From the NCBI GenBank assembly GCA_030426845.1, contig JAUHXR010000056.1:1-35999 (forward strand): a stretch of DNA of 35,999 nt, given 5' to 3'. Positions within the stretch are counted from its first letter, which is position 1; every line of letters starts with the position of its first letter. The translations under genes and the position numbers were made by a program. The notes under the pieces are model-generated. The model searched no databases. It saw nothing but the letters and a program-made list of their open reading frames with translations, and had not been told where the DNA came from. The stretch comes from Polyangia bacterium. Its GTDB lineage: Bacteria > Myxococcota_A > Polyangia > Polyangiales > Sandaracinaceae. Shown here piece after piece: positions 18,415 through 21,801 of this stretch.

Positions 18415-19425
18415 TCACTGTGGCCGGAACGACTCCACCGTGTCGACGGCGGCGAGGGACGGCGCGTCGCCGCCGCCGATCGCGTAGAGGCGCGCCCCGA
18501 TCGCGACGAGCCCGTGCCCGTGGTGCGGCGTGGGCGAAGGCGGCGCGGCGGACCAGGTCATCGTCGCGAGGTCGAGCCGATCCATCGTCGCGTGGACGGT
18601 CCGGGACTCCTCGCCGCCGTGCACGTAGAGGCCCCCGCCGAGGATCGCGGCCCCGAAGCCGCCGCGAGGTGAGGGCAGCGCCGGCCCGCCCCGCCACGCG
18701 TCGGCGACCGGGTCGTAGATCTCCACCTCGACGCGGGTCGAGTCGAGGCTGTTACGGCGCCCGGCGAGGACGTAGAGCTCGCCCTGGTGCGCGACCGCCG
18801 CGAGGTGCTCGCGCTCGGTCGGGATGGGCGCGCCGAAGCGCCACGCGTCGCCCGCCGGATCGTAGAGGAGCGTCTCGGACGCGAGGCGGCCGCTGAGCAT
18901 GTTGCCGCCGGCGAGGACGAGGACGTCACCGATCGACGCCGCCGCGCCGGCGCCGCGCGCATCGGGGAGCGACGCGATGGGCGTCCACTCCGACGCGCCC
19001 GCGCGGAGGACCCAGGCCGTGTCGAGGGGCTCGAAGGACAGCCCCTCCATCCCGCCGAGCGCGTAGAGATCGCCCCCGTGGGCGACGAGGCTCATGTGGT
19101 GACGCGGGGCGGGGAGCGCGGGCCCGTCGGTCCACGCGGAGGTGGACGCGTCGAAGATGAAGACCCGCGGGGTGACCGCGCCGCGGATGAAGCCGCCGGC
19201 GACGTAGACGCGCGTCCCGAGCGTCGCGACCGCGACCTCCTGCATGCGCGTCGGGAGCGACGGCTCGCTGCGCCAGCCCGGCAGATCGGGGCCCGCGTCC
19301 ACCGGGCCCGCGTCGGGGGCGCCGCCATCCGTCGCGGCGGGCCCGGCGTCGATGGTCGGCGCTCCGTCGCACCCACCGACCAGGCCGAGGGCCAGCGCCA
19401 GGGCGATCGTGGCGGCGCGCGTCAT
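18415..19425 (-). CDS. Kelch-repeat lipoprotein
   Basis: 336 aa. The lipobox is VGGC, followed by a DAG/DGG-rich linker of about 30 residues. Then come five or six Kelch blades with the Gly-Gly plus Tyr/Trp pattern: VYVAGGF, LYALGGM, VLVLAGGN, LYVLAGRR, LYVHGGEE and LYAIGGGD, each followed by an aromatic-rich strand such as AWTDGPALPAPRHHM. The fold is a beta-propeller used for binding or occasionally oxidation; no catalytic residues are obvious. It lies 54 nt upstream of the DUF4215 lipoprotein on the same strand, likely co-transcribed. Confidence 0.88.
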   Translation of the reverse strand: MTRAATIALALALGLVGGCDGAPTIDAGPAATDGGAPDAGPVDAGPDLPGWRSEPSLPTRMQEVAVATLGTRVYVAGGFIRGAVTPRVFIFDASTSAWTDGPALPAPRHHMSLVAHGGDLYALGGMEGLSFEPLDTAWVLRAGASEWTPIASLPDARGAGAAASIGDVLVLAGGNMLSGRLASETLLYDPAGDAWRFGAPIPTEREHLAAVAHQGELYVLAGRRNSLDSTRVEVEIYDPVADAWRGGPALPSPRGGFGAAILGGGLYVHGGEESRTVHATMDRLDLATMTWSAAPPSPTPHHGHGLVAIGARLYAIGGGDAPSLAAVDTVESFRPQ

Positions 19426-19437: not shown

Positions 19438-19494
19438 GCACGCGTCGGCCGGTGGGCGGTCGAGCGCGGCCGCAGGCCCGGCGCAGGAGGTCGT

Positions 19495-19659
19495 CTAGTC
19501 ACCCGGAACAGCGATTCATGGCACATCCCACCGGCCCTCGCCGCGCGACTCGGCGTCACTCCTCCTCGAAATGCCCTTGGCATTCCTCGTCGTCGTTCCT
19601 TGATTCGCACGGCGATGGCTCGCCGGGATGTGCCGTTCACTGCTGTTCCGGGTGACTAG
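19495..19659. repeat. 165-bp long-hairpin element bounded by CTAG
   Basis: Outer arms CTAGTCACCCGGAACAGC (19495-19512) and its exact reverse complement (19642-19659) are followed inward by a symmetric 7/7-nt internal loop, then GGCACATCCC (19520-19529) with GGGATGTGCC (19625-19634). Pairing continues with GGC/GCC, CC/GG, TCGCCG (19538-19543) with CGGCGA (19610-19615) and GCGA (19545-19548) with TCGC (19605-19608). The tip has AATGCC-CTT-GGCATT. It contains no plausible gene. The outermost CTAG occurs as a direct as well as inverted pair, so it could be a 4-bp target duplication around TCACCCGGAACAGC terminal repeats. A MITE-like element or a structured RNA are both possible. It accounts for about half of the 363-nt gap 19426-19788. 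Confidence 0.85.
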
Positions 19660-19681
19660 TCATGGACGCACGATTCGACGC

Positions 19682-19788: not shown

Positions 19789-21801
19789 ATGCGCTACGCC
19801 GCATTGCTCGCGCTCCTCACGGTCGCCTGCGACGGTGCGCCGCCGTCGGTGGACGGCGGCCCGCCCGACGCGGGGGCGCGCCCGGCCACCCAGGCGGTCG
19901 TCGGCTACAACACGCCCGACGATCTCTTCGCCGCCCCGTGGCCGGACGAGCGGCTCCGCCGCCCCGACGGGACGGTCGACGTGTCGGCCTTCCCCAACCC
20001 GCGCGGCGCGCCGATCGCCGACGACCTGCGCTCGATCCTCGAGGGCGCGCGCGGCTTCGGCGTCTCGAGCGGCATCTACTTCGCGCTCACCGGCCCGCTC
20101 GACCCGGCCTCGCTCCCGGACCCGGCCGGCTCGATCGGCGCCGACGCGTCGGTGTTCCTCCTCGACGTGGCGCGCGGCGAGCGCGTTCCGATCGACGTGC
20201 GCTACCTCGAGGACGCCGGCACCTTCTCGCCCGACCACCTCCTCGCGGTGCTCCCGCTGCAGGGGCGGCCGCTCCGGCCCGAGGCGCGCTACGCCGCGGT
20301 GGTAACGACGGCGGCGCGGAGCCCGGCCGGCGAGCCGCTCGTGGCCGGCGAGGGGACCCGCGCGATCGCGGCCGGGGAGCCGCCGCCCGGCCTCGATCCG
20401 TCGGTGTACGACGCACAACGATCCTTGCTCGACCAGCTCGACCGAATGGGCGTCGACCGAGACCGCGTCGCCGCCACCGCGCTGTTCACCACCTGGGATC
20501 CGACGGCCGAGCTGCGCGCGGCCCAGGCGCAGCTCGCGACGATGGATCCGCCGGCGCTCGAGGCCGACTTCACGGCGGCCGAGGTCTTCGACGAGCTCTG
20601 CGTCTACCACGCGACCGTACGCATGCCCGACTTCCAGGGCGGCGAGGCGCCCTACCTCGACGGCGGGGGCGCGTGGGTCTACGAGGGCGGCGCGCTCGCG
20701 GTCCAGCGAATGGCCCAGGCGAACCTCTGGGTCACCCTCCCCCGGCGACCGATGCCCGCGGACGGCTTCCCGGTCGCGGTGTTCGTCCGCACCGGCGGGG
20801 GCGGCGACCGGCCGCTCGTCGATCGCGGGCCCCGCGCCACGGCCGGCGGCGACGCGATCACCCCGGGCACCGGCCCGGCCCTGCACTTCGCCCGCGCCGG
20901 CTTCGCGGGCGTGTCGGTCGATGGCCCCCTCGGCGGTCTGCGCAACACGGACGGCTGGGACGAGCAGTTCGCGATCTTCAACATCAACAACGTGCGCGGG
21001 CTGCGCGACAACGTCCGCCAGTCCGCGCTCGAGCTCATCCACCTCGTGCGCCTGCTCGGCACCGTCGCGATCGACGCCTCGGGGTGCCCGGACCTGACGA
21101 CGCCGACCGCGGGCTCGGTCGCGCTCCTCGACCCCGACACGGTCGCGCTCATGGGCCACTCGATGGGCGCGACCATCGCGCCGCTCGCGGTCGCGCTCGA
21201 GCCGGCCTACGACGCGGCGATCCTGAGCGGCGCGGGCGCGAGCTGGTCGCGGAACGTCATCTTCAAGGAGAGCCCCATCGCCGTCCGCCCGGCGGCCGAG
21301 AACCTGCTGCGCTACCCGGCGGGCTCGCTCGTCGAGCACGACCCGGTGCTGGCGCTCCTGCAGTGGGCGGGTGAGCCCGCCGACCCGCAGGTCTACGCGC
21401 GCCACCTGCTCGAGGAGCCGATCGCGGGCGAGGCGCGGCACGTCCTCATGTTCCAGGGGATCCTCGACACCTACATCCCCCCGCCGGTCGCCAACCCGCT
21501 CGCCCTCGCCATCGGGCTCGACCAGGCCGGCCCGGCCCTCGATGAGGCGCTCAGCGACCGGTTCACGCCGCTGTCGGCGGAGCTGCCGCTCGCGGGGGGC
21601 GCGCAGATCGGGCTGCCCGCGTCCGCCAACCGCGCCGGGCGCGTCGCGGTCGTCGTGCAGCACGCCGAAGACGGCATCGAGGACGGCCACGAGGTCGTGT
21701 TCCAGACCCCCGGCCCGCAGCTGCAGTACCGCTGCTTCCTCAGCTCCCTCGCGGCCGGCGCGCCCCAGGTGCCCGCGACCGACGCGACCGACTGCCCCTG
21801 A
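19789..21801 (+). CDS. large lipoprotein alpha/beta-hydrolase
   Basis: 670 aa from ATG 19789. A short signal with lipobox TVAC is followed by a DGG/DAG linker. An N-terminal region (~40-330) carries Ig-like or lipase-N-like sequence. The C-terminal alpha/beta-hydrolase has nucleophile elbow GHSMGA (Ser458), preceded by ALMGHS, and a later LMFQGILDTYIPP segment typical of the acid-residue strand. The length and order fit large extracellular esterases or lipases of the bacterial virulence-factor-lipase type. The substrate is unknown. The next gene begins 61 nt downstream. Confidence 0.82.
   Translation: MRYAALLALLTVACDGAPPSVDGGPPDAGARPATQAVVGYNTPDDLFAAPWPDERLRRPDGTVDVSAFPNPRGAPIADDLRSILEGARGFGVSSGIYFALTGPLDPASLPDPAGSIGADASVFLLDVARGERVPIDVRYLEDAGTFSPDHLLAVLPLQGRPLRPEARYAAVVTTAARSPAGEPLVAGEGTRAIAAGEPPPGLDPSVYDAQRSLLDQLDRMGVDRDRVAATALFTTWDPTAELRAAQAQLATMDPPALEADFTAAEVFDELCVYHATVRMPDFQGGEAPYLDGGGAWVYEGGALAVQRMAQANLWVTLPRRPMPADGFPVAVFVRTGGGGDRPLVDRGPRATAGGDAITPGTGPALHFARAGFAGVSVDGPLGGLRNTDGWDEQFAIFNINNVRGLRDNVRQSALELIHLVRLLGTVAIDASGCPDLTTPTAGSVALLDPDTVALMGHSMGATIAPLAVALEPAYDAAILSGAGASWSRNVIFKESPIAVRPAAENLLRYPAGSLVEHDPVLALLQWAGEPADPQVYARHLLEEPIAGEARHVLMFQGILDTYIPPPVANPLALAIGLDQAGPALDEALSDRFTPLSAELPLAGGAQIGLPASANRAGRVAVVVQHAEDGIEDGHEVVFQTPGPQLQYRCFLSSLAAGAPQVPATDATDCP

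Follow-up and report, generated by a model that had tools for sequence, protein, structure and literature searches.

A dispersed CTAG-flanked hairpin element in a Sandaracinaceae genome and its core conserved as structure on one strand

MITEs are usually defined by ends common to one transposase, and REPs depend on Y1 transposases. REP/BIME and REPIN sequences are dispersed palindromic repeats, the REPs spanning 20-40 bp and bearing GTAG or CGTC tags (PMC3733652, PMC3116915). ERIC, Correia/NEMIS and RUP, the enterobacterial and neisserial MITEs, measure 100-170 bp, lie between genes, duplicate TA and lack a transposase; TA ends and long hairpin transcripts have been described for them (PMC2229807). 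YPAL/RU-2 of Yersinia is a mobile hairpin of 167-168 bp whose structure has been reported with compensatory changes (PMC2267715; also PMC2759123, PMC2229807). Among transposons, IS1272 inserts by replacing a target stem-loop and leaves no duplication (PMC5678879), and the CTAG target preference of IS630 is that of Tenzen and Ohtsubo (1991), as entered in the reference list of PMC2170065.

The element considered here lies in a stretch of 35,999 nucleotides (the window, meaning the whole of the DNA analysed), which lies in contig C101 of G000, its own genome, a draft in 538 contigs. Like the IS630/Tc1-mariner transposons and the MITEs derived from them, its family combines a TA duplication with a CTAG preference, and IS630 elements from its order have termini matched by several sibling families; unlike them, it has no transposase gene, and it has a one-strand structured core common to families with unrelated termini. 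ERIC, Correia/NEMIS and RUP, which it resembles in the features listed above, are each tied to one host group, whereas this core occurs with many termini in several phyla, and no common core sequence was seen between them and it. YPAL differs in its target duplications of 3-26 bp beside dyad symmetry and in having no TA termini. Identity with YPAL/RU-2 was rejected given the TA duplication here and a printed YPAL sequence (PMC2759123) that, compared by eye, is without the CGACGA / GAGGAG tip motif. IS1182 transposons of the order are CTAG-bounded and have termini in common with some hairpin families; in contrast to IS1182/IS1272, the hairpins here duplicate TA and carry no transposase.

The hairpin in the window

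The mobile element proper is 159 bp long (19498-19656, G...C) and is without any gene, its limits being those common to the copies in its own genome and those of a filled/empty comparison for a sister copy. CTAG is present at either end, as the first-pass annotation had said, and the putative TA duplication, placed by analogy with that sister copy, occupies 19496-19497 (inside C-TA-G) and 19657-19658. The left terminal inverted repeat GTCACCCGGAACAGC (19498-19512, plus strand) is complementary over 15/15 bases to the right one (19642-19656, minus strand), and occurs as a terminus only in G000, G005 and G008. With the flanking bases included, direct reading gives outer arms of 18/18 complementary bases (19495-19512 / 19642-19659). 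These are followed by a 7/7 mismatch, GATTCAT at 19513-19519 against GTTCACT at 19635-19641 (both plus strand), by 10 paired bases and by imperfect pairing up to the tip, where a stem (19568-19575 / 19579-19586) encloses the loop 19576-19578. An inverted repeat search returned 19495-19529 / 19625-19659 at 86%, and the fold energy of 19485-19670 is -100.9 kcal/mol versus -66.2 +- 4.5 for shuffles (n=200; z -7.8). Hence, the near-complete self-complementarity noticed at first sight is borne out.

The same first reading had confined the compensating divergence of the arms to the 7/7 loop; this detail needs amending. The internal mismatches are not neutral divergence: on the minus strand most are purine-purine (A.G, G.G), and their positions are conserved between families. 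In the self-alignment, the left side of the 7/7 loop can form G.T, T-A, G.A, A.G and A-T on the minus strand. It is on this purine-rich strand that the structured core (19525-19627) matches our covariance model R1 with 107 bits. Near the tip it carries the two strands of a tandem G.A motif, minus-strand GAGGAGGAG (19559-19567) and CGACGACGA (19587-19595), recognised from the self-alignment and from invariant alignment columns; between them lies the tip stem-loop GGAATGCC-AAG-GGCATTTC (19568-19586, minus strand), supported by the fold and by pair covariation.

The element sits between two divergently transcribed genes, one for a Kelch-repeat protein (18415-19425, minus strand) and one for an uncharacterised 670-aa protein (19789-21801, plus strand).

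Copies, target site and termini

Near-complete copies number about 10 in G000, with identities of 91-97%; besides these, there are five half copies, one copy with an internal deletion and relatives at greater distance. G005 and G008, of another genus in the same family, hold similar copy numbers at 82-90% identity. In G005, the site orthologous to that of one G008 copy (L061) is unoccupied, with 96% identity over 344 bp: the empty site (G005:C87) reads ..GACG-C-TA-C-GAGCCG.. and the filled one (G008:C137) ..GGCG-C-TA-[GTCACC...GGTGAC, 159 bp]-TA-C-GAGCCG... From this alignment it follows that the target duplication is TA. We conclude that it is the 2-bp TA inside C-TA-G/C, seen on the sister copy and carried over to the window copy by analogy; a 3-bp CTA duplication is formally possible, but would break the perfect terminal repeat. 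Many dispersed copies and an empty site in a sister genome thus uphold the earlier proposal of a non-autonomous mobile element, while its 4-bp YTAR duplication of IS5-like type finds no support: what is duplicated is TA, with CTAG as the context preferred for insertion, and an IS5-group MITE was rejected on this ground.

The complete genome G315 (8.05 Mb) carries 18 copies of three core types, with TA in a YTAR context; therefore, the repeats are not assembly artefacts. At L339-L379 of G315, two different cores stand under the same termini AGTAACTGCAC..; at least nine copies are almost identical and represent a recent burst. No replication-strand bias is visible there (8 leading, 10 lagging, by a GC-skew estimate from 20 samples). 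The five half copies of G000 (L011, L013, L015, L016 and L017, on contigs C215, C378, C12, C297 and C417) all keep the same half and end within ~2 nt of the tip loop, which is suggestive of breakage at an extruded hairpin tip, with n=5 in a draft assembly.

Across 66 loci scored with a crude home-made gene finder, almost no copy lies inside a gene, and many insertions are at places where the TAG of CTAG serves as a stop codon; the intergenic location is explained by the rarity of CTAG in genes and its frequent use as a stop. At the same loci, the direction of the copies with respect to adjacent genes is random (upstream 23:21, downstream 18:27), which makes a cis-regulatory role unlikely. Other CTAG-bounded repeats abut the elements L004, L008, L012, L013 and L017 in G000, one being a hairpin whose termini (AGCGCCNATCGGTTTG) resemble those of IS1182, another a repeat bounded by GGAGTGTCTTCAAAG; CTAG sites therefore collect several element types in tandem. 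A stretch of 1.7 kb in G005 (L060, contig C93, 33-1635) contains three hairpin elements that belong to different families, one of them at the contig end.

The outer ~30 bp differ between hairpin families, and the terminal repeats of the superfamily match either those of IS630 transposons, which target TA and prefer CTAG, or those of transposons of the IS1182/IS5 type. In the order, transposons of the IS630 family, as confirmed by NCBIfam, are CTAG-bounded with hairpin-type ends, and their transposases carry the hairpin termini CTAGTGTCCTGAGT, CTAGTGCACCGCC and CTAGTACCTCG.CACAG. The ends CTAGTGTCCTGAGTC of L302 match hairpins L132 and L092, the ends CTAGTGCACCGCCCCCGAGATGTGATCAAG of L305 match L103 and L231, and the CTAGTACCTCG.CACAG ends of L303 and L308-L310 match L240, L263 and L291. 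IS1182-type transposases carry CTAGAGCACCGATC..TTTGAA and CTAGCAGCCYGTTGA; ends of IS1182 elements (L139/L197 and others) and of the IS1182/IS5-like L134 match hairpins L122 and L060B. For the window element itself, derivation from IS1182/IS1272 was rejected, its termini differing from all IS1182 ends read, while L122 and L060B do have the termini of an IS1182 element. One core class in G000 occurs with two sets of termini (L001 and L014); taken with the two cores under shared termini in G315, this means that core and termini are exchangeable modules.

A search for an insertion sequence with the same terminal repeats, which the first-pass annotation had recommended, thus succeeded for the sibling families, some of whose termini are identical to those of IS630. 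Among 184 genomes it found no transposon with the window termini GTCACCCGGAACAGC, the pattern giving only hairpins (ends in G000, G005 and G008) and chance matches; the element's own genome, a 538-contig draft, gave no IS630, IS1182 or Y1_Tnp match.

A core conserved on one strand

Beyond close relatives, genomes at greater distance match the window element in its centre only. We aligned 24 diverse cores (A1) and built R1 from them. The inner ~100 nt are conserved as structure, on one strand only. Invariant columns of A1, numbered on the minus strand, are C37 G38 A39 C40 G41 A42 G43 and G62 A63 A66 G67, which amounts to a [C-G, G.A, A.G] unit occurring twice in a row at the tip. Compensatory double changes affect 16/21 consensus pairs, and the covariation score of the core is 0.543 versus 0.192 +- 0.020 for shuffled alignments and <=0.126 for slid structures. 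Evidently, the element is multi-copy, has homologues and covaries strongly, rather than being a single-copy sequence with neither homologue nor covariation.

The strand on which this structure exists is apparent from its mismatches. A strand-neutral self-alignment of 45 elements counts 391 A.G versus 30 C.T and 105 G.G versus 20 C.C, a bias that is slightly conservative because L079 was entered in reverse orientation. With one representative for each of 11 families, purine-purine mismatches stand to pyrimidine mismatches as 38:1 at the tip, 33:2 in the mid arm and 7:2 in the outer zone; the bias recurs in a second sample, drawn from further orders, classes and phyla, at 80:3, 55:9 and 30:6, respectively. 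Mismatch counts share ancestry and the second sample was picked with R1, so that p-values are indicative only.

Within G000, where copies are 92% identical on average, broken pairs (164 cells) outnumber double compensations (14). Between families compensation prevails, with 59 compensated versus 30 broken pairs among three families of G057. Resident copies thus lose pairs without compensation, and compensated changes are what separates families, so that the role of the structure probably lies in propagation and not at individual sites. Once inserted, copies appear free to decay, and it is in those that spread that the fold seems to count. The structured RNA that had been offered as an alternative is half retained: the core does form a single-strand structure, conserved and strongly covarying, but the random orientation to genes makes a cis-acting mRNA element unlikely.

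Matches to R1 occur in 59/184 genomes of the order and in 64/379 genomes drawn from the phylum, and presence is patchy among related genomes. With each GTDB species represented by one genome, the tip pattern matched 47 loci, most of them in MAGs of Deltaproteobacteria, Binatia and Gemmatimonadetes; no match was found in IMG/VR viral contigs or phage records, so a phage link was dropped, and none in E. coli. Complete elements of the superfamily are 160-181 bp long, the majority 164-168, and their tip lies centrally. Elsewhere, it was found singly in Gemmatimonadota, Binatia, Novosphingobium and Subdoligranulum, the R1 matches to Novosphingobium and to a Subdoligranulum plasmid locus scoring 56-57 bits. 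A covariance search of Rfam 15, which takes in the skipping-rope motif if Rfam includes it, returned no family, only unrelated sub-threshold matches. That motif is mentioned in PMC8501573.

In G068, four hairpins (L230, L254, L255 and L256) have the conserved core and outer arms that vary from copy to copy, each almost fully complementary; the arms are G-rich in 2/4, and TA/CTAG ends are absent in 3/4.

Probable transposition in trans and its alternatives

The dispersed short copies without a transposase gene, the 15/15 terminal repeats and the TA at the empty site of the sister copy make the element a MITE, and the TA duplication with CTAG/YTAR preference places it with the MITEs of the IS630 family. 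We consider it likely that a transposase encoded outside the element, most probably one of the IS630 (Tc1/mariner) type, mobilises it in trans as double-stranded DNA; aid to spread would be the likeliest reason for keeping the fold. For the window's own family the type of transposase is inferred by analogy, from TA duplication, CTAG preference and the termini of its siblings. The transposase would cut at the terminal repeats and insert the element at TA inside CTAG or YTAR, duplicating the TA. The inner ~100 nt would be an old module, one strand of which folds into a hairpin containing tandem G.A pairs; since this core is common to families whose outer ~30 bp match different transposons, it would be the termini that were exchanged and the core that stayed. 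The fold may help spread, for example if a hairpin or cruciform joins the ends of the element, as it could in one about as long as the persistence length of DNA; alternatively, the folded strand might be recognised directly during transposition. Four points count against this explanation: the draft of G000 gave no IS630 or IS1182 transposase, and the genomes searched gave none with the termini GTCACCCGGAACAGC; the TA duplication was seen on a sister copy; some members of the superfamily, in G068 and G001, are without TA or CTAG ends; and ordinary transposition of double-stranded DNA, which needs no folded interior, leaves the structural selection unaccounted for.

A rival account takes the element for an ordinary IS630-type MITE, its core being only inherited ancestry and its arms being kept mechanically by template-switch correction of quasi-palindromes with no selection for the fold. 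Template switching is a known means of correction in long imperfect palindromes, and the outer-arm mismatches of the first sample show little strand bias, as expected of double-stranded termini. However, mechanical copying would erase A.G and G.G mismatches, yet these persist at fixed places beside covarying pairs, and young copies diverge mainly by uncompensated changes, so that correction is not fast; we regard this account as unlikely. Strong covariation, strand-specific structure and an almost wholly intergenic distribution would also suit a host-beneficial structured RNA or regulatory hairpin repeated by chance. Against it stand the random orientation, the free decay of resident copies, the patchy presence, the lack of an Rfam match and the sufficiency of CTAG rarity and stop codons to explain the intergenic location, which together render it very improbable. 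A strand-specific fold with a conserved tip, and Y1_Tnp genes in some genomes, could instead suggest a Y1/HUH or REP-type (RAYT) transposase that recognises the folded strand and moves the element as single-stranded DNA. But TA is duplicated at insertion, and to our knowledge Y1 transposition makes no target duplication; moreover, G000 has no Y1_Tnp match, no hairpin lies beside the Y1 genes in the loci inspected, and G315 lacks a replication-strand bias. We therefore give this mechanism hardly any credence, and a REP/RAYT identity was discarded on the TA duplication and the Y1_Tnp result.

Returning to transposition in trans with a fold that aids spread, each ingredient has precedent: MITEs with TA ends (PMC2229807) and, in the case of YPAL, a hairpin repeat showing compensatory changes (PMC2267715). 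In the literature covered, which is partial, we found no description of a cross-phylum core with exchangeable termini of unrelated transposases. A bolder reading, which we hold tentatively and with more doubt than belief, is that of a cross-phylum mobile module, a folded single strand with a tandem G.A hairpin that adopts the termini of unrelated DDE transposases (IS630, IS1182/IS5) and needs its fold for transposition. If true, structure and not terminal sequence would define the element. In the superfamily it is the ends that vary, whereas a one-strand structure is conserved in the middle across several phyla. Two questions thereby become testable: does a fold in the interior aid the transposition of very short elements, and by what route does a non-autonomous element come to use another transposase? 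G315, with its recent burst, would be a good genome for such experiments. With R1, it also becomes possible to annotate intergenic hairpins that are otherwise anonymous, in their thousands.

A related abundant hairpin repeat occurs in 49 places of 11 Gammaproteobacteria records, including Pseudoalteromonas and Catenovulum plasmids (L402, L403, H6-H16). The repeat of Pseudoalteromonas chromids has the CAAGGC...AACGC frame in common with the elements above but scores below the R1 threshold; repeats of this type carry CAAGGCAAATTT...AAATTTAACGCAG, with CTAG ends in the copies read.
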